Positions 20,056-54,020 of a DNA stretch of 54,020 nt are shown in pieces (position 1 is the stretch's first letter; each line of letters begins with the position of its first letter). The notes below the pieces were generated by a model. It had not been told where the DNA came from. It ran no database searches and saw only the letters and a list, made by a program, of their open reading frames with translations. The stretch lies in NCBI GenBank assembly GCA_004295105.1, contig SHNC01000268.1:1-54020 (forward strand), in the 5' to 3' direction. The position numbers and the translations under genes were made by a program. The DNA is from Betaproteobacteria bacterium. GTDB taxonomy: Bacteria; Pseudomonadota; Gammaproteobacteria; Burkholderiales; Rhodocyclaceae.

Positions 20056-21864
20056 GTGCCAGCTTCGCATCCGTGCACGACCCTTGCAGGAAAGCTCCGC
20101 CGGACACTCGTCGCCGGCCTGACGCTGCTGCTGTTCGCCGCACCGTCCCTGTCCGCCGACGAAGCTCCCGCCCGCCGCGAAGTGCGCATCGGCGTGCTCG
20201 CCTTCCTCGGCGCCGAGGCGGCGGTTTCCGAATGGTCTCCGCTCAAGCGCCGCCTCGAGGCGGCGCTGCCACGATACGTGTTCAGGCTGGTCGAACTCGA
20301 CCATGCGCGCATGGATGCCGCCGCGCGTGCAGGCGAGCTCGATTTCGTCGTCACCAATCCGGGGCACTACGTCGAGCTCGAGTCCGAACTCGGCGCGAGC
20401 CGCATCCTGACGCTGGACAGCGGCAAGGGGCGCTCTGCTGCCGAGGCGCTGGGCTCCACCGTGGTGGCGCGTTCGGACAGTCGCGACCTCGACACGCTTG
20501 CCGACCTGCGCGGGCGGCGTGTGGCGATCGTCGGCACCGAAGCCTTCGGCGGCTATCAACTCGTGTGGCGCGAGCTTGCCGCGCTCGGCATCGATCCCGC
20601 GCGGGACTTGTCGGCGCTGAAGGTGGTGGGCTACCCGATGGACGAGGTGCTGGCCGCCGTCGAGCGTGGCGAGGCCGATGCCGGCGTCGTGCGCGCCTGT
20701 GTGCTGGAGGGGCGACCGCAGTGGGCATCGCGGCTGCGCGTCGTCGGCCGGCGCAGCGAGACGGATCATCCCTGTGCGACTTCGACGCGGCTGTATCCCG
20801 ACTGGGCCATCGCGACCCTGCACCATACGCCGCCCGAACTCGCCAAGTCGCTGGCCATCGCGCTGCTCGGCATGGAGCGGGGCGACGAAGGGATGGCATG
20901 GGCGGTGCCGGCCGACTACCAGGCGGTGCACGACCTATTTCGCGAACTGCAGATCGGCCCCTACGCCTACCTGCGCGAGCCCACGCTGATGGTCATGGCG
21001 GAGCGCTACTGGCCCTGGGTGGCCGCGGCGGCGGCGCTGGTCGTGCTGTGGATCCTGTACACGCTGCGGGTCGAACACATGGTGCATCTGCGCACCGCCG
21101 AGCTGCGCGCCGCGCTCGATGCACGCGACGTGCTGGAGCGCCGCATGCGCGACAGCCAGGAACAGGCCGAGCACCTGGCGCGCCTGTCGGTGCTGGGCGA
21201 ACTGTCGGGCACGCTTGCGCACGAACTCAACCAGCCCCTGGCAGCGATCGGCAATTACGCGCAGAGCCTCGAACGGCGTGTCGACAACCACCGCCTGACC
21301 GACGCGGCGGTGCGTGAAGCCGCCGGCGAGATCGCCGCGCAGGCCGAGCGCGCGGCGGGCATCATCGGCCGCATCCGCAGCTTCGCGCGGAAGCGCGTCG
21401 CACAACGCGAGCGGGTCGCGCCGTCCGAACTGGTGCGCGAGGCGGTGGCGTTGTTCCGCGGCATGCTGGCCAGCGCGCCGGAGGTGTCGATCACCGACGA
21501 GCTGCCGCCCGACACCACGATCGAGGTCGATCCCCTGCAGATCCAGCAGGTGCTGCTCAATCTGCTGAAGAACGCCTGGGACGCGACCCGCGAGCTGGCA
21601 CCGGAACGCCGCCCCCTCGCACTGCGGCTGGCCCGTACCGACGGCACGATCCGCATTCTGCTGCGCGATCAAGGCCCCGGTCTCGATGCCGCGGCGCAGG
21701 CGCGTCTTTTTGAGCCTTTCTTCACCACCAAGCGCGATGGCCTCGGTCTGGGCCTGTCGATCTGCCGGCGGATCGCCGAGGCGCACGGCGGCCGCCTGAC
21801 GGCGGAAGCGCCCGTCGAAGGTCCCGGCATGGTGTTCGCCTTGAGCCTGCCCAGCCATGACTGA
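20056..21864 (+). CDS. Sensor histidine kinase with PhnD-like periplasmic domain (TtrS-like)
   Basis: The protein has a signal-like hydrophobic stretch (residues about 15-30), a periplasmic PhnD/phosphonate-binding-like domain (REVRIGVLAFLGAEAA onward, including DFVVTNPGHYVELE), a transmembrane helix at YWPWVAAAAALVVLWILY, a short coiled coil, and a histidine kinase core. The kinase core has the H-box GTLAHELNQPLAAI, N-box NLLKNAWDA, G-box DQGPGLD and GLGLGLSICRRI. This layout matches TtrS, the tetrathionate sensor. No ATG lies in a suitable place; GTG 20056 is my best start but lacks a strong ribosome site, and GTG 19936 is possible. The start of the response regulator overlaps its stop by 8 bp. 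Confidence 0.85.
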   Translation: MPASHPCTTLAGKLRRTLVAGLTLLLFAAPSLSADEAPARREVRIGVLAFLGAEAAVSEWSPLKRRLEAALPRYVFRLVELDHARMDAAARAGELDFVVTNPGHYVELESELGASRILTLDSGKGRSAAEALGSTVVARSDSRDLDTLADLRGRRVAIVGTEAFGGYQLVWRELAALGIDPARDLSALKVVGYPMDEVLAAVERGEADAGVVRACVLEGRPQWASRLRVVGRRSETDHPCATSTRLYPDWAIATLHHTPPELAKSLAIALLGMERGDEGMAWAVPADYQAVHDLFRELQIGPYAYLREPTLMVMAERYWPWVAAAAALVVLWILYTLRVEHMVHLRTAELRAALDARDVLERRMRDSQEQAEHLARLSVLGELSGTLAHELNQPLAAIGNYAQSLERRVDNHRLTDAAVREAAGEIAAQAERAAGIIGRIRSFARKRVAQRERVAPSELVREAVALFRGMLASAPEVSITDELPPDTTIEVDPLQIQQVLLNLLKNAWDATRELAPERRPLALRLARTDGTIRILLRDQGPGLDAAAQARLFEPFFTTKRDGLGLGLSICRRIAEAHGGRLTAEAPVEGPGMVFALSLPSHD

Positions 21865-22489
21865 CCGCGACCATTGCGTCATCCACGTCGTCGACGACGA
21901 CGCCGCGTTTCGGCGCTCCCTCGTCTTCCTGCTCGAATCGGAGGACTGGCAGGTCAGGTCCCACGCCAGCGCGGAAGCGTTCCTCGAGGCCTGCGCCGCT
22001 CCGCCGCCCGACCTCGGCTGCCTCGTGCTCGACATCCGCATGCCCGGCATGAGCGGGCTCGAACTACAGCATGCGCTGCAGGCGCGCGGCTGGCGGGTAC
22101 CGATCGTGTTCATCACCGGCCATGGCGATGTGGAACTCGCGGTGCAGGCGATGAAACGCGGCGCCGCCGATTTCGTCGAGAAGCCGTTCAAGGACCAGGC
22201 CTTGCTGGATGCGGTGGCGGCGGCGGTGCGCCGTGGTGCGCAGGATCGCGCGCAGGCGGTGCGTCGTTGCGAGGCCGCGGAACTGCTCGCCCGGCTGTCG
22301 CCGCGCGAGCGTCAGGTCGCGCGGCTGGTGGCGCTCGGCTCACCGAACAAGATCGTCGCGCGAGAACTCGGCATCAGCGAGAAGACGGTTCACATCCACC
22401 GCCAGCACGTGATGGCAAAGACCGGTGTCGGCAGTGCGGCCGAACTGGCGCGCCTGATGCTGCGTGCCGACCCCGCCGCACTGGACTGA
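21857..22489 (+). CDS. FixJ/NarL-family response regulator (TtrR-like)
   Basis: The 210-residue protein has a receiver domain (residues about 6-120) with the acidic pocket DDD at 13-15, phospho-acceptor Asp59 in LDIRMPGMSG, and the switch Thr and Lys in FITGHGD and EKPF. It then has a LuxR-type helix-turn-helix (LSPRERQVARLVALGSPNK...LGISEKTVHIHRQHVMAK). It overlaps the sensor kinase gene by 8 bp, so the two form a pair. The nearest target is the tsdA-like gene downstream, where an inverted repeat could be its site. The TtrR label rests on the partner and context. Confidence 0.88.
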   Translation: MTDRDHCVIHVVDDDAAFRRSLVFLLESEDWQVRSHASAEAFLEACAAPPPDLGCLVLDIRMPGMSGLELQHALQARGWRVPIVFITGHGDVELAVQAMKRGAADFVEKPFKDQALLDAVAAAVRRGAQDRAQAVRRCEAAELLARLSPRERQVARLVALGSPNKIVARELGISEKTVHIHRQHVMAKTGVGSAAELARLMLRADPAALD

Positions 22490-22701
22490 AGCAGCACGCG
22501 CGGGCAGCCCCCCGAGCTCAGCGCCCCGGGTTGCCCGCACCCATTCCTCCCCCGGGGCCCATCCTGCCGCGTACCGGGGGTTCGTCGGGCAGCGTGGATG
22601 CCTCCAAGCCTCTTCCCGGATCTCAAGCTAGACGCCCTGCGGCTGCCGTGTGTATCGCCGTGTAGGCGGCACGCGCGCGGCTGGCTAGATCATTTTCCCT
22701 A

Positions 22702-22739
22702 TTGTCGAGCGCCGCGTGGACTGGGATAACGCTCGACAA
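22702..22739 (+). promoter_or_regulatory. Perfect 10-bp inverted repeat, candidate operator
   Basis: TTGTCGAGCG (22702-22711) and CGCTCGACAA (22730-22739) are perfect reverse complements separated by 18 bp, so the half-site centres are 28 bp apart, near the spacing of adjacent dimers on one DNA face. It lies about 120 bp upstream of tsdA and directly follows the response-regulator gene. It could bind that regulator or form a hairpin in RNA. Confidence 0.55.
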
Positions 22740-22771
22740 CGTCACTGGACACCCGCGCCATGCACATGTCC

Positions 22772-22785
22772 GTGATCAATATCAA
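22772..22785 (+). promoter_or_regulatory. FNR/ANR-like box upstream of tsdA
   Basis: GTGAT-CAAT-ATCAA matches the FNR/ANR consensus TTGAT-N4-ATCAA at 9 of 10 positions. The centre is 83 bp before the tsdA ATG. A TAAACA-like -10 (22801-22806) lies about 29 bp further from the centre. This would give oxygen-limited expression. Confidence 0.5.
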
Positions 22786-22861
22786 AAAACGGTGAAATTC
22801 TAAACATCGGGCGCCCACTGTCGCGCCCCGATCGACCCGTTCGAACATCAGGAGCGATGCC

Positions 22862-23902
22862 ATGAACAGAACGCATATCCCGGGTTTGCTGCTGGCGGCG
22901 GCGCTCGCGGTGGGAAGCCAGGCCCAGGCCCAGACCAGCCCCGTCAATCCGCTGGCGCCTGCCAAGGTCAGCCTCCTCGATCGCCCGCAGCCCAACGTCG
23001 ACAGTCTGCCCGACGACGAATACGGTCGTCTGGCCCGCTACGGACACGAACTGACGACGCGCACCTTCGCCCACATCGGGCCCGAGGTGAAGGACGACCG
23101 AAAGCGCTTCGCCGGCAACAACCTCGCATGCACCTCCTGTCACCAGGAGAACGCCACCAAACCCTATGCGATTCCCTGGGTCGGCGTCACCTCGACTTTT
23201 CCGCAGTACCGCGGTCGTGAAGATGCGCTGAGCACGGTGGAAGAGCGCGTCAATGGCTGCATGGAACGCAGCATGAACGGCAAGCCGCTGCCGCTCGATT
23301 CCACCGAGATGAAGGCCTTCACGACCTACATCCATTTCGTGTCGCGCGGGATTCCGGTGGGCGCGGAGATCGAGGGCAGCGCCACCAAGGCGGTCAAGTT
23401 GCCGAACCGGCGCGCCGACGTGGCCGCGGGGGAGGCGATCTTCAAGGCCCAGTGCCAGGTCTGCCATGGCGAGAACGGTGAGGGGCGTCGCGTCGGCACC
23501 CTGGGCGATGCGCAGGGCTACGTCTTCCCGCCGCTGTGGGGCAAGGACAGCTTCAACAACGGTGCCGGCATGAACCGCATCATCACCGCCACCCGCTTCA
23601 TCCGCCACAACATGCCGCAGGGGGTGAATCACACCACCGCCATCCTGACCGACGACGAAGCCTTCGACGTCGCAGCCTACATGCTGTCGCAACCGCGTCC
23701 GCTCAAGGCCAACCTCGAGAAGGACTTCCCGGCGCGCTGGAACAAGCCGATCGATGCCGCCTTCCCGCCGTATGTCGACGGCGCGCCGGCCGACCAGCAC
23801 AAGTACGGCCCCTTCCCGCCGCTGGCCGAGAAGGCGCGCGAACTCGCAGCGAGGCACGCCGAGGAAGTCAAGGCGAAACAGGCGCCGCCCGCCGCGAAGT
23901 GA
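22862..23902 (+). CDS. tsdA: Diheme cytochrome c, thiosulfate dehydrogenase/tetrathionate reductase
   Basis: The 346-residue periplasmic protein has a signal peptide ending near AQA-Q24. There are two c-type heme sites, CTSCH at 90-94 and CQVCH at 198-202. The segment FPQYRGRE...VEERVNGCMERSMNG (113-140) is the TsdA signature: Cys133 aligns with the unusual cysteine that ligates the active-site heme. TsdA joins two thiosulfates into tetrathionate, and some members mainly run the reverse reaction as tetrathionate reductases (Campylobacter jejuni). The TtrS/TtrR-like pair and FNR-like box next to it favour a role with tetrathionate under low oxygen, but direction cannot be read from sequence. 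An inverted-repeat hairpin follows. Confidence 0.9.
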   Translation: MNRTHIPGLLLAAALAVGSQAQAQTSPVNPLAPAKVSLLDRPQPNVDSLPDDEYGRLARYGHELTTRTFAHIGPEVKDDRKRFAGNNLACTSCHQENATKPYAIPWVGVTSTFPQYRGREDALSTVEERVNGCMERSMNGKPLPLDSTEMKAFTTYIHFVSRGIPVGAEIEGSATKAVKLPNRRADVAAGEAIFKAQCQVCHGENGEGRRVGTLGDAQGYVFPPLWGKDSFNNGAGMNRIITATRFIRHNMPQGVNHTTAILTDDEAFDVAAYMLSQPRPLKANLEKDFPARWNKPIDAAFPPYVDGAPADQHKYGPFPPLAEKARELAARHAEEVKAKQAPPAAK

Positions 23903-50207: not shown

Positions 50208-51758
50208 ATGGAAGAACTCGTAACACAGTTGGTCGGCTACCTGCGGGGCATGTGGCGCTTTCGCTGGTGGGGACTGGCGCTGTCCTGGCTGGTCGGCATC
50301 GTCGGCTGCGTGATGGTCTATCTGATGCCCGACAAGTACGAATCGAGCGCGCGGATCTTCGTCGACACGCAGTCGGTATTGCGGCCATTGATGTCGGGTC
50401 TCGCGGTTCAGCCCAACATCGACCAGCAGGTCGCCATCCTGAGCCGTACGTTGATCAGCCGCCCGAACGTCGAAAAGCTGATCACGATGGCCGACCTCGA
50501 CCTCGGCGTGCGCTCGCCGAAGGAGCGCGAGGCACTGATCGACTCCCTCAGCGGCAGCCTGCAGATCCGGCCTGCCGATCGCGGCAGCAACAACCTTTTC
50601 CTGCTCGCCTATTCGGACACCCAGCCCGCGCGTGCGCAGCGTGTCGTGCAGTCGCTGGTGTCGCTGTTCGTCGAATCGGGTCTGGGCAGCAAGCGCCAGG
50701 ACAGCGATGCGGCACGCCGCTTCATCGAGGAGCAGATCAAGAGCTATGAGCAGAAGCTGATGGAGGCCGAGAACCGGCTGAAGGAGTTCCGGCTCAAGAA
50801 CATGGCTCTGATGGGTAGCAGCACCGGAGATTTCGTCGGCCAGATCGGCAAGATGCAGGAGCAGCTCGAACAGGCGCGACTCGAGTTGCGCGAGGCGGAG
50901 AATTCGCGCGACGCGATGAAGCAGCAACTGCTGGGCGAGCCTTCGTCGCAGGAATTCGCTCCGCCTGCCGCGGTGATGGCCACGCCGGAAATCGATGCGC
51001 GCATCGATGCGCTCAAGCGCAATCTCGACGACATGATGCAGCGCTATACCGACCAGCATCCTGATGTCATCGGTGCGCGGCGTGTCATCGAGCAGCTCGA
51101 GAAGCAGAAGGGCGAGCAGATCGCGCAGATGCAGCAGGCGGCGACCAATTCGCCAATGGGCGTGATGGGGGTCAATCCGGCCTTCCAGCAGCTCAAGCTG
51201 GCGCTGGCCGAGGCGGATGCCCGCGTCGCCTCGATGCGGGCCCGTGTCGGCGAGTTCGAGAAGCGCATCCAGCAACTCGGCGCATCGGCCAAGATGGTGC
51301 CTGAACTCGAAGCCGAGATGGCGCAGCTCAATCGCGACTATGCGGTCAACAAGAGCAACTACGATCAATTGGTAGCGCGTCGCGAGTCGGCCAGCATCGG
51401 TGTGGAGATGAGCGACCAGGCCGGCATTGCCGAGTTCCGCCTGATCGATCCGCCCACACTGCCCAACAAGCCCTCCGCCCCCAACCGCCTGCTGCTGCTG
51501 CCGCTGGTCGGTCTCGCCGCGCTGGCGGCCGGTGCGGCGCTGACCTTCCTGATCAGCCAGTTGCGTCCGGCCTTCAGCGATGGCCGTGCATTGCGCGAAG
51601 CGACCGGATTGCCCGTCCTCGGCACCGTATCCATGTTGTCTACGCCGGAACGCATCCGAACCCGTCGCCGCGGTCTGCTCGCCTTCTCGGGAGGGCTTGC
51701 TTCCTTCGTCGGCGCGATTGCCGTCGCGACGGCCGCATTGATGGTGATCCAGCGTTGA
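50208..51758 (+). CDS. XrtA-system polysaccharide chain-length determinant
   Basis: The 516-residue inner-membrane Wzz/GNVR-type protein has an N-terminal helix (WGLALSWLVGIVGCVMVYLM), a long periplasmic coiled-coil part (residues about 165-400) and a C-terminal membrane helix (LLLLPLVGLAALAAGAALTFLI) with further hydrophobic segments. PDKYESSARIFVDTQSVLRPLM is the signature near residue 42-63, spread over two blocks. It sets EPS chain length with the downstream kinase and belongs to the group linked to exosortase A (GumC-like). Confidence 0.9.
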   Translation: MEELVTQLVGYLRGMWRFRWWGLALSWLVGIVGCVMVYLMPDKYESSARIFVDTQSVLRPLMSGLAVQPNIDQQVAILSRTLISRPNVEKLITMADLDLGVRSPKEREALIDSLSGSLQIRPADRGSNNLFLLAYSDTQPARAQRVVQSLVSLFVESGLGSKRQDSDAARRFIEEQIKSYEQKLMEAENRLKEFRLKNMALMGSSTGDFVGQIGKMQEQLEQARLELREAENSRDAMKQQLLGEPSSQEFAPPAAVMATPEIDARIDALKRNLDDMMQRYTDQHPDVIGARRVIEQLEKQKGEQIAQMQQAATNSPMGVMGVNPAFQQLKLALAEADARVASMRARVGEFEKRIQQLGASAKMVPELEAEMAQLNRDYAVNKSNYDQLVARRESASIGVEMSDQAGIAEFRLIDPPTLPNKPSAPNRLLLLPLVGLAALAAGAALTFLISQLRPAFSDGRALREATGLPVLGTVSMLSTPERIRTRRRGLLAFSGGLASFVGAIAVATAALMVIQR

Positions 51759-51771
51759 ACGGAATATTGCG

Positions 51772-52722
51772 ATGAGCCTGATCGAGAAAGCAGCACAACG
51801 TCTGGAAAAACTGAAGCAGGCAGCGGGGGATGACGTCGACGCGTTCGAGCCGGCCGTCGCCACGGTGTCCGACCGGCCGCAGCCGGCCGTCGAGCCCGTG
51901 CCCGCGGTCCAATCCTCTGCCGTACCGCGTCCGGCGCCGATGCGGACCAACCCCGTCGTGTCGCGCAGCGTCACCATCGACCTCGAGCGTCTGCACCACA
52001 TCGGCATGGTCACGCCGGAGCACTCGCGCAGCGCGCTGGCGGAGGAGTTTCGCGTCATCAAGCGACCATTGCTGCACAACGCCACCGCCACGGGCCCGGC
52101 CGCCGTCGACAGCGGCAACCTGATCATGGTGACGAGTGCCCTGCCGGGCGAGGGCAAGTCCTTCACCGCGGTCAACCTCGCGATCAGCATGGCGATGGAG
52201 CTGGACCACACGGGGCTGCTGGTCGACGCCGACGTGTCCCGCCCTTCGATACTCCGTCACCTCGGCCTGGCGCCCGAGCGCGGCCTGATGGACGTCCTCT
52301 CGGGTGAGGTCGACGACCTCGGTGAGGTGCTGCTGCGCACCAACATCGAGAAGCTCTCCATCCTGCCCGCCGGCATGCCGCATCCGCGTGCGACAGAACT
52401 GCTCGCATCCGACGGCATGAACCAGTTGCTCGAGCAGATCGCCAATCGCTACCCGGACCGTATCGTCGTGTTCGACTCGCCCCCTCTGCTGGTGACCACC
52501 GAGGCGCGCGTGCTGGCCACCCACATGGGGCAGATCGTGATGGTGGTGGAGGCCGAGCGCACCACGCAGGGGTCTGTCCGGCAGGCGCTGGCGACGATCG
52601 AATCCTGCCCGGTGAAGCTGATGGTGCTCAACAAGTCGCGCCGCTCGGGCCCGGGGTCCTACTACGGTTATGGTTATGGCTATGGATATGGCGCGGAAGG
52701 CGGCCCGCAGCAGGCGGCGTGA
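51772..52722 (+). CDS. XrtA-associated tyrosine autokinase
   Basis: The 316-residue BY-kinase acts in the cytoplasm with the chain-length protein. It has Walker A SALPGEGKSFTAVNLA, Walker A' LLVDADVSRPS and Walker B IVVFDSPPLL. The C-terminus ends with a Tyr cluster (SYYGYGYGYGYG), the target of autophosphorylation in this family. The DNA of that cluster is a short TATGG tandem repeat and overlaps the start of the next gene. ATG 51772 is 13 bp after the chain-length gene. Confidence 0.92.
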   Translation: MSLIEKAAQRLEKLKQAAGDDVDAFEPAVATVSDRPQPAVEPVPAVQSSAVPRPAPMRTNPVVSRSVTIDLERLHHIGMVTPEHSRSALAEEFRVIKRPLLHNATATGPAAVDSGNLIMVTSALPGEGKSFTAVNLAISMAMELDHTGLLVDADVSRPSILRHLGLAPERGLMDVLSGEVDDLGEVLLRTNIEKLSILPAGMPHPRATELLASDGMNQLLEQIANRYPDRIVVFDSPPLLVTTEARVLATHMGQIVMVVEAERTTQGSVRQALATIESCPVKLMVLNKSRRSGPGSYYGYGYGYGYGAEGGPQQAA

Positions 52723-54020
52723 CGCCAGGCGGCGGCCGCCGCCATCGCTGCTCGCGCTGGCAACGCTGCTGGCCGCGGGCGGTGCGTTCGCGCAAACCTC
52801 GGTCGTCACGCCTTCCCTGAATGCAACGCTGACGTGGACGGACAACGCCAGCACGTCCGGGATCGGCGGTTTCGGGGGACTTGGGGGCAGCGATCGCGGT
52901 GGTGACGACTGGATCCTGGAAGTGTCGCCTGCGGTTTCGATCTATCGCGACAGCGGACGGCTCAGCGGATCGCTCAATGCGAACTTTCGCAACGTGATGT
53001 ATGCGAGCAGCGCAGACAGGAACACTTCCTATCTCGCGCTCAGCGGCAGCGGTCAGTTCGAGGCGATCGAGAACATGCTGTTCATCGACGCGGATGCCTC
53101 GATCAGCCGCAGCAACCTGTCCACGTTTTCGACCCGTGGGCCCGGTGACGACCTCGACGTGAACTCCGACAATGAGACGCGCGTGTTCTCGCTGTCGCCG
53201 CGCTTCATGTTTCGCATTGGCGACAACACCCGCGGTTCGCTGCAATACCGTTACCGCTGGTCGGACTCGGGTGGCTCGCAACTTGCCGATCAGAGCGCCG
53301 GAAATTGGTCGGCGCAGATCTCCAATACCCAGATCACGGGCATCTTCGGCCTGGGGGTCGACTACAGCCGCACCGAGAGCGACAACAGCGGCGGATCGGG
53401 CCTGGCGGGGGGCAGTGGAACCGGCTCGTCGCTGCGTGGCGGCAATACTCAACAGAGTGCGCGCGCCACGCTGTACGCGAAGGTCACACCCGAACTCCGG
53501 CTGCGCGGCATCGTCGGCCGCGAGTCGAATGATTACAGCGGCCGGGGCGACCAGAGCAGTACCGTCACCGGCGGAGGCTTTGACTGGAACCCGACCGACC
53601 GAACCACGATTTCCGGTACTGTCGAACGCCGCATCTTCGGCCGCGGCTACGATCTCAGCTTCCAGCACCGCCTTTCACGCACGGCCCTGTTCGCAACCTT
53701 CTCGCGCGACATCCAGTCCTCGCTCGATCTGATCGCCGGCGGGGGACTGCTCGATCCCCTGTTCCAGCCCTTGTTCCAGGATCCCTTGCTGGCCGCGCTG
53801 TACCCTGATCCGGTGGTTCGGCGCGACGCGGTGCTGCTGATCCTGCGGCGCCTGCGGGGCGACGTGCTGACCAACGCCTATTTCGTGACGCGCAGCCTCT
53901 CCGGCGGGGTCACCTACAGCCTGCCGCGCGGCGTGCTGTCGCTGACGCTCAGCCAATCGGAGAACTCGCGCCTCGGTTCGGCGGAAGGGCTGAGCGCGGT
54001 CGACGACTTCCGCAACTTCA
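52688..54020 (+). CDS. PEP-CTERM-system outer-membrane protein (TIGR03016-like), 3' partial
   Basis: This frame runs to the window end without a stop, over 440 residues. After an Arg-rich start (MARKAARSRRRD) comes a hydrophobic signal peptide ending GAFAQ, then beta-strand-rich sequence with alternating aromatic and polar residues (GSLQYRYRWSDSGGSQ, AQISNTQITGIFGLGVDYSR). This is typical of the outer-membrane barrel-type protein of the XrtA EPS locus. The start is unclear: four in-frame ATGs (52670, 52676, 52682, 52688) lie in the Tyr-tail repeat of the upstream kinase gene. No good ribosome site is seen. Confidence 0.8.
   Translation, partial: MARKAARSRRRDARRRPPPSLLALATLLAAGGAFAQTSVVTPSLNATLTWTDNASTSGIGGFGGLGGSDRGGDDWILEVSPAVSIYRDSGRLSGSLNANFRNVMYASSADRNTSYLALSGSGQFEAIENMLFIDADASISRSNLSTFSTRGPGDDLDVNSDNETRVFSLSPRFMFRIGDNTRGSLQYRYRWSDSGGSQLADQSAGNWSAQISNTQITGIFGLGVDYSRTESDNSGGSGLAGGSGTGSSLRGGNTQQSARATLYAKVTPELRLRGIVGRESNDYSGRGDQSSTVTGGGFDWNPTDRTTISGTVERRIFGRGYDLSFQHRLSRTALFATFSRDIQSSLDLIAGGGLLDPLFQPLFQDPLLAALYPDPVVRRDAVLLILRRLRGDVLTNAYFVTRSLSGGVTYSLPRGVLSLTLSQSENSRLGSAEGLSAVDDFRNF

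Follow-up and report, generated by a model that had tools for sequence, protein, structure and literature searches.

TtrSR-like genes beside tsdA in a Thauera genome: a likely exchange of the enzyme partner under a conserved candidate operator

In Vibrio parahaemolyticus, the response regulator TtrR binds and activates the tsdBA genes as well as ttrBCA, acting through a GTGG-N4-CCAC box (PMC11293645). The TsdA protein of Campylobacter jejuni is a physiological tetrathionate reductase (PMC5146829), and TsdA enzymes work in both directions (PMC6879331). Other kinds of regulation described for tsdA-type genes include light and c-di-GMP in Erythrobacter (PMC10267684) and sulfane-sulfur repressors in Hyphomicrobium (PMC12423496). 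We analysed a stretch of 54,020 nucleotides (contig SHNC01000268.1 of assembly GCA_004295105.1; the whole stretch is called the window below) from a bacterium of the genus Thauera, in which genes for a TtrSR-like two-component system are followed by a tsdA gene. We consider it likely that this is a TtrSR system with a new enzyme partner, tsdA having taken the place of ttrBCA. The kinase falls among kinases linked to ttrA, a search of the assembly found no ttrA, the single close match to the box of ttrB promoters lies at tsdA, and the arrangement is repeated in a second genome (G323). The first-pass annotation of the window had proposed that a sensor of tetrathionate or thiosulfate controls TsdA instead of ttrABC; the first three of these observations support that proposal, and TtrSR probably does control tsdA.

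A kinase of the ttrA-linked kind beside tsdA

The three genes lie where the first-pass annotation had placed them, and the products of all three score above their Pfam cut-offs. They point in the same direction, with the reading frames of ttrS and ttrR overlapping by 8 bp (table 1). Because a gap of 372 bp, holding the predicted box, separates ttrR from tsdA, the latter probably has its own promoter. The kinase frame, when read from a GTG start, encodes 602 amino acids, and the PhnD-like periplasmic domain attributed to it is indeed recognized as Phosphonate-bd (PF12974, 114.7 bits, cut-off 27), together with HisKA (38.4 bits, cut-off 26.9) and HATPase_c (74.2 bits, cut-off 26.4). Its best NCBIfam model is TtrS (NF040750, 315 bits), in keeping with the label 'TtrSR-like' under which the pair was originally annotated. 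The adjoining regulator is, as had been said, of the FixJ type (Response_reg 94.9 and GerE 62.7 bits, both over the cut-off); among NCBIfam models FixJ (229.5 bits, cut-off 255) ranks over TtrR (NF040749, 152.8 bits), with neither cut-off reached.

The identification of the third gene as encoding a TsdA-signature cytochrome with two CxxCH motifs and Cys133 proved sound as well. Its product scores 55.3 bits with the SoxA/TsdA domain PF21342 (cut-off 27) and 52.5 bits with Cytochrom_C (cut-off 21.3), and the closest solved structures are thiosulfate dehydrogenase chains (4wqc, E 1e-50; 4v2k, E 2.8e-50). The residues C90, C93, H94, C133, C198, C201, H202 and M251, which include the Cys ligand of heme 1 and the Met ligand of heme 2, are invariant in the five sequences aligned (the window and four relatives). 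A C-terminal stretch of the subfamily, KDFPARWNKP...FPPYVDGA...YGPFPPL (window 23720-23824), is likewise conserved and lies mostly outside the part aligned to 4v2k (residues 82-296).

Table 1. Positions of the genes and predicted regulatory elements of the ttrSR-tsdA locus in the window.
Feature	Position	Strand	Basis or details
ttrS-like sensor histidine kinase	20056..21864	+	Pfam, NCBIfam, tree, predicted fold
parts of the kinase: signal-like N-terminus; PhnD-like periplasmic domain; membrane-spanning stretch; HisKA; HATPase_c	~20182-20970 (PhnD-like domain)		membrane-spanning stretch by eye; HisKA with His389 of 602 amino acids
ttrR-like FixJ/LuxR-type response regulator	21857..22489	+	Asp59; recognition helix ISEKTVHIHRQHV
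predicted TtrR operator CAATAGGGAAAATGATCTAG (minus-strand reading)	22685..22704	-	conservation in relatives
CTGGGATAA block	22721..22729	+	promoter element by inference only
FNR/ANR-like site GTGATCAATATCAA	22772..22785	.	consensus scan, one mismatch
tsdA, encoding a c-type cytochrome with two hemes (thiosulfate dehydrogenase/tetrathionate reductase family)	22862..23902	+	Pfam, solved relatives, alignment
features of TsdA: Cys133; heme-2 region RHNMP			Asn250-Met251

The phylogenetic position of the kinase ties it to tetrathionate reductase loci. In a tree of 80 rows the window kinase belongs to a set of 21 rows, 19 of them linked to ttrA and two (the window and G323) linked to tsdA, and in a more careful tree of 32 rows it stands beside the kinase of G493 (branch values 97/90); both trees were built without the TtrS sequences of Salmonella, Vibrio or Shewanella. 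Clustering of the sensor away from TtrS-type kinases had been named in advance as a reason to abandon the proposal, and the sensor instead sits among ttrA-linked kinases. A survey of 29 Thauera genomes including the window (thresholds E≤1e-60 for ttrA, E≤1e-50 for the sensor and E≤1e-60 for tsdA; G323 was not part of the ttrA search) found the window type of sensor in 17. In 13 of these the sensor adjoins ttrA, and in the other four (the window, G460, G490 and G508) a tsdA-family frame, those of G460, G490 and G508 being relatives of 38-42% identity; tsdA itself was found in two of the 29, the window and G500 (Thauera sp. 2A1). The name ttrA refers to the model NF011567, with which five of six scanned proteins score 1183-1206 bits, under its cut-off of 1750, the sixth being a chemotaxis protein.

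In the window, the place adjoining ttrSR that ttrBCA occupies elsewhere is taken by tsdA. The first-pass annotation had seen neither ttrABC nor tsdB in the window, and for ttrA, the one searched genome-wide, this extends to the whole 3.87-Mb assembly, in which no relative was found at E≤1e-10; with that query, ttrA is recovered from 13 of 28 further Thauera genomes at E≤1e-60. Since the assembly is in draft state (294 contigs, completeness 94.7%), it could be argued that ttrBCA is present in the organism but unassembled, tsdA being merely a second target of TtrR as in Vibrio. We regard this as highly improbable, as the kinase adjoins ttrA on the same contig in 13/13 ttrA-positive Thauera genomes and the kinase locus of the window is fully assembled without it.

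The periplasmic domain of the sensor retains 43 of the 43 residues invariant across 26 ttrA-linked sensors, which bears on a response to tetrathionate only indirectly. A fold model built from an alignment of 11 rows (mean pLDDT 77.9) matches the binding proteins PtxB, ArrX, HtxB and XAC2383, i.e. a single binding-protein fold that does not itself indicate the ligand. The sensor might alternatively read thiosulfate, as does ThsSR of Shewanella halifaxensis, which stands beside a thiosulfate reductase operon (PMC5408782); however, the retention of all 43 invariant residues (a comparison with ttrA-linked sensors that included no ThsS sequence) and the choice of TtrS as the best NCBIfam model make a thiosulfate sensor unlikely. 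Two cysteines of the domain, Cys209 and Cys234 (in a 596-residue reading; window 20698-20700 and 20773-20775), are shared by at least 95% of the 75 sensors compared and could form a disulfide or react with polythionate. The fold relatives of the domain also include AioX, whose structure has been solved with arsenite bound.

Kinases of the same design occur in other settings, too. In a selection of 20 proteins encoded next to them, Pfam recognizes molybdopterin enzymes, proteins of the DsbC, thioredoxin and DsrE types, TauE and products of unrelated genes, so not every such kinase looks like a tetrathionate sensor by its neighbourhood. Four loci (L251, L254, L255 and L256) combine a kinase/regulator pair of this design with frames of 686-738 amino acids that contain a TsdA-like part, adjoining the pair in L254, L255 and L256 and a few kilobases away in L251; these frames are possibly TsdB-TsdA fusions.

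The re-pairing of ttrSR with tsdA has probably happened twice. In G323, ttrS, ttrR and tsdA follow each other in one direction and in the same order as in the window, with a box of 38.7 bits before tsdA. The G323 kinase, however, lies elsewhere in the same ttrA-linked clade, and forcing it into one clade with the window kinase costs 51.8 log units and is rejected (p-AU 8.9e-5). The TsdA proteins of the two genomes are nevertheless sisters (94/76); thus either a single kind of tsdA joined two different ttrSR pairs, or the ttrSR genes next to it were replaced.

A candidate operator shared by ttrB and tsdA promoters

The GTGG-N4-CCAC box of Vibrio was rejected as the operator of the window, as it does not occur in the tsdA promoter there; among the other promoters scanned it is exact in one tsdA promoter (L176) and present with one mismatch in 8 of 36 ttrB promoters. 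Promoters were thus compared without a prior motif. In the aligned ttrB promoters of 12 Thauera genomes, a single 20-bp near-palindrome, CAATAGGTAAAACCATCTAG, stands out as strongly conserved; it is also present in relatives. When the 54 kb were searched with a matrix made from 27 ttrB-promoter sites, the window excluded, the sole good site was found 157 bp ahead of the tsdA ATG, with 31.1 bits against 13.9 for the next best; with a matrix made from 13 sites outside Thauera, the two values are 31.1 and 11.6. Across the entire assembly, the box occurs without mismatch only at tsdA and there is one other match with three mismatches (a reversed-pattern control gives 4), and 0 of 100 shuffled windows contained a match.

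The distribution of the box in 175 loci (2.82 Mb; picked around these genes and partly overlapping) follows the same genes: 25 of the 32 matches with at least 17 bits lie within 700 bases upstream of ttrB, and seven lie likewise upstream of tsdA or ttrS. The seven comprise those of the window, G323 and G500 (counted twice, L150 and L274), a weak one (18.4 bits) in Aromatoleum tolulyticum (L202), and those before ttrS of L243 and L244. A further 448,558 bases yielded nine loci with a match of at least 15 bits, of which L034, L095, L270, L135 and L136 repeat known places and L103 has a weak match before tsdA. The tsdA genes of L103 and L202, which are 53-57% identical, both have the weaker box of 18.4 bits upstream; the genome of L103 (G458) also carries ttrSR-ttrBCA elsewhere (L234), so that TtrR may act there on tsdA as a second, remote target.

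A second type of box emerged from 69 tsdA promoters (left after removal of the duplicate loci L194, L274, L159 and L169 and of promoters under 150 bases), 14 of which have a sensor of the same kind within 6 kb and 55 of which do not. The motif TAGCC-N6-GGCTA, with at least 9 of 10 letters matching, is present in 7 of the 14 sensor-linked promoters and in 0 of the 55 others (Fisher 3.2e-6, a post hoc value, since this box B was first recognized by eye and then counted on the same promoters). The seven (L162, L165, L166, L167, L170, L173 and L258) lie near a more distantly related kinase/regulator pair. The box types correspond to the recognition helix of the regulator: all 27 promoters with the ttrB type of box (type A) go with a helix of the form SE[KR]T, 25 of them being ttrB boxes in the training set of the matrix, and all seven type-B promoters go with SD[HN]T. 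By helix class, the promoters with neither box number, for ttrB, EK 5/28, ER 0/2, DK 1/1 and 2/2 with the helix motif not read, and for tsdA, EK 5/7, DN 5/8, DH 0/4, EN 3/3, DK 1/1 and 4/4 not read. Some of the tsdA sequences among them are internal to long frames resembling TsdB-TsdA fusions and thus are no promoters. On balance we lean, from these sequence comparisons, towards a small recognition code across the family (SE[KR]T with TAGGTA-type boxes, SD[HN]T with TAGCC-N6-GGCTA at tsdA) and at least two re-pairings in which sensor and operator would have outlived the enzyme, a molybdenum reductase being replaced by a diheme cytochrome.

The tsdA promoters of the window, G500 and G323 share, apart from the box, the CTGGGATAA block at a near-constant distance from it. 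A scan with the FNR consensus TTGATN4ATCAA further finds a perfect site, TTGATATATATCAA, in G500 at the place aligned with the FNR-like site of the window; the G323 promoter contains no such site with up to two mismatches. A small divergent gene stands upstream of tsdA in G323 (L238:8300-8812) and G500 (L274:8378-8779), with products 62-72% identical, while window 22490-22861 holds at most a vestige of it (tblastn E 0.028), and 67 bases of the window gap match the gap of G500 at 73% (E 5e-7). The tsdA gene may have travelled together with the divergent gene and the box. At the far right end of the window, beyond ttrSR-tsdA, the genes at 50208-54019 resemble, by their N-termini, exopolysaccharide chain-length and autokinase genes.

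The proposed circuit and the points weighing on it

In the circuit that we propose, the PhnD-like domain of TtrS would bind a sulfur oxyanion, most likely tetrathionate, and TtrS would phosphorylate TtrR, as the conserved His389 and Asp59 suggest. TtrR would then bind the conserved box and activate tsdA, an FNR-type regulator perhaps joining in at low oxygen through the site in the same promoter. TsdA would act on the compound that is sensed, most likely by reducing tetrathionate to thiosulfate and so replacing the missing TtrABC. The same control could also serve the opposite chemistry, with TsdA oxidizing thiosulfate and its product activating TtrS, i.e. a positive feed-forward switch for thiosulfate oxidation. 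Such a switch has a precedent in V. parahaemolyticus, where the tetrathionate made by TsdBA activates TtrRS, which in turn activates tsdBA (PMC11293645); TsdA enzymes are bidirectional (PMC6879331), and no TtrA relative that would consume the product was found in the assembly. However, a sensor of the same kind stands beside tetrathionate reductase in sister species, the heme-2 region carries Asn like the TsdA of C. jejuni, which reduces tetrathionate, and not Lys like that of A. vinosum, and the FNR-like site hints at anaerobic use. Besides, a search of the assembly with SoxB (TIGR04486) yielded nothing at E≤1e-10, and the first-pass annotation had found no sox genes in the window. Oxidation is thus a tentative alternative to which we assign a smaller, though real, chance.

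Several points weigh against the proposed exchange of ttrBCA for tsdA. The kinase does not reach the TtrS equivalog cut-off of 750 bits, a shortfall common to this lineage, as three ttrA-linked kinases score only 283-311 bits; similarly, the regulator stays below the TtrR cut-off of 290, as does one ttrA-linked regulator (163.8 bits). The box is assigned to TtrR by its conservation, and three matches (L063, 25.6 bits; L108, 26.9; L121, 19.5) have no assignable promoter. Of the 12 Thauera ttrB promoters, 0 have an FNR-like site with up to two mismatches. Replacing Asn254 of C. jejuni TsdA by Lys caused no turn towards thiosulfate oxidation, which leaves the direction of TsdA unsettled (PMC5146829). 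The draft state of the assembly bears on the absence of ttrA. Finally, G500 has the identical 20-bp box at its tsdA (L274:8981-9000) and no sensor match in its genome at E≤1e-50; the box there might be an orphan operator or might have some other reader.

The case of G500 also bears on the history of the site. Ten of 12 Thauera regions around the MBL-fold gene found downstream in the window have ssb and this gene with neither ttrSR nor tsdA between them; in G500 tsdA lies between the two, and the remaining region ends at a contig edge. Between ssb and tsdA of G500 no convincing remnant of ttrSR was detected (best tblastn E 0.62). The ttrSR-tsdA module looks like a local gain. One might take the neighbourhood as fortuitous, with TtrSR a relic beside a tsdA gene governed otherwise, and both the sensorless tsdA of G500, with the same box at the same site, and the ten regions lacking ttrSR and tsdA fit such a view. 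It appears very improbable, since no second close match to the tsdA box exists in the assembly, the intact kinase has kept all 43 sensor invariants, and both gene order and box recur in G323.

Comparison with described systems

If true, the exchange of ttrBCA for tsdA would be a clean and replicated case of an enzyme giving way to a non-homologous one while signal and operator are conserved. The analysis yields a precisely defined 20-bp site and a hypothesis of specificity based on two residues, both directly testable, offers parts for a tetrathionate sensor with an operator unlike that of Vibrio, and gives a regulatory handle on the direction of TsdA in these bacteria. Control of tsdBA by TtrR is already known from V. 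parahaemolyticus (PMC11293645), the only report of a TtrR-tsdA link found in those parts of the open-access literature that were covered, where no report of an enzyme exchanged with the operator kept was found either. As far as seen, novelty lies in the proposed exchange with a kept operator, in its second occurrence, in a box unlike that of Vibrio and in the correspondence of helix and box.

As in V. parahaemolyticus, TtrR is tied to a tsdA-type gene by an inverted-repeat box, here a predicted one, and one sensor links, here presumably, tetrathionate and TsdA; there, however, ttrBCA and tsdB are present and co-regulated through GTGG-N4-CCAC, whereas the assembly of the window has yielded no ttrA and the box reads CAATAGGGAAAATGATCTAG. 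Among Thauera and related genomes, the TtrSR-ttrBCA loci (L230-L237, L239-L247, L279-L287 and L290) have kinases and regulators of the same clade, with 51-70% identity of the sensor, and, wherever the ttrB promoter is reachable, the same box; in them the box precedes ttrB and ttrA stands beside ttrR, while in the window it precedes tsdA downstream of ttrR. C. jejuni TsdA resembles the protein of the window in being a diheme cytochrome with a Cys ligand of heme 1 and Asn-Met at heme 2, but is described in the part of the source seen without a TtrSR partner (PMC5146829). ThsSR of S. halifaxensis likewise is a two-component sensor of a sulfur oxyanion beside an enzyme operon, the ligand in our case being a predicted one; it differs in sensing thiosulfate and driving phsAB-psrC (PMC5408782). 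In Halomonas, a two-component pair beside tsdBA has been proposed to regulate thiosulfate oxidation, but it consists of a QseB-type regulator and a histidine kinase, read in terms of quorum sensing, and the portion of that paper covered here describes no pair of the TtrSR type (PMC9237845).

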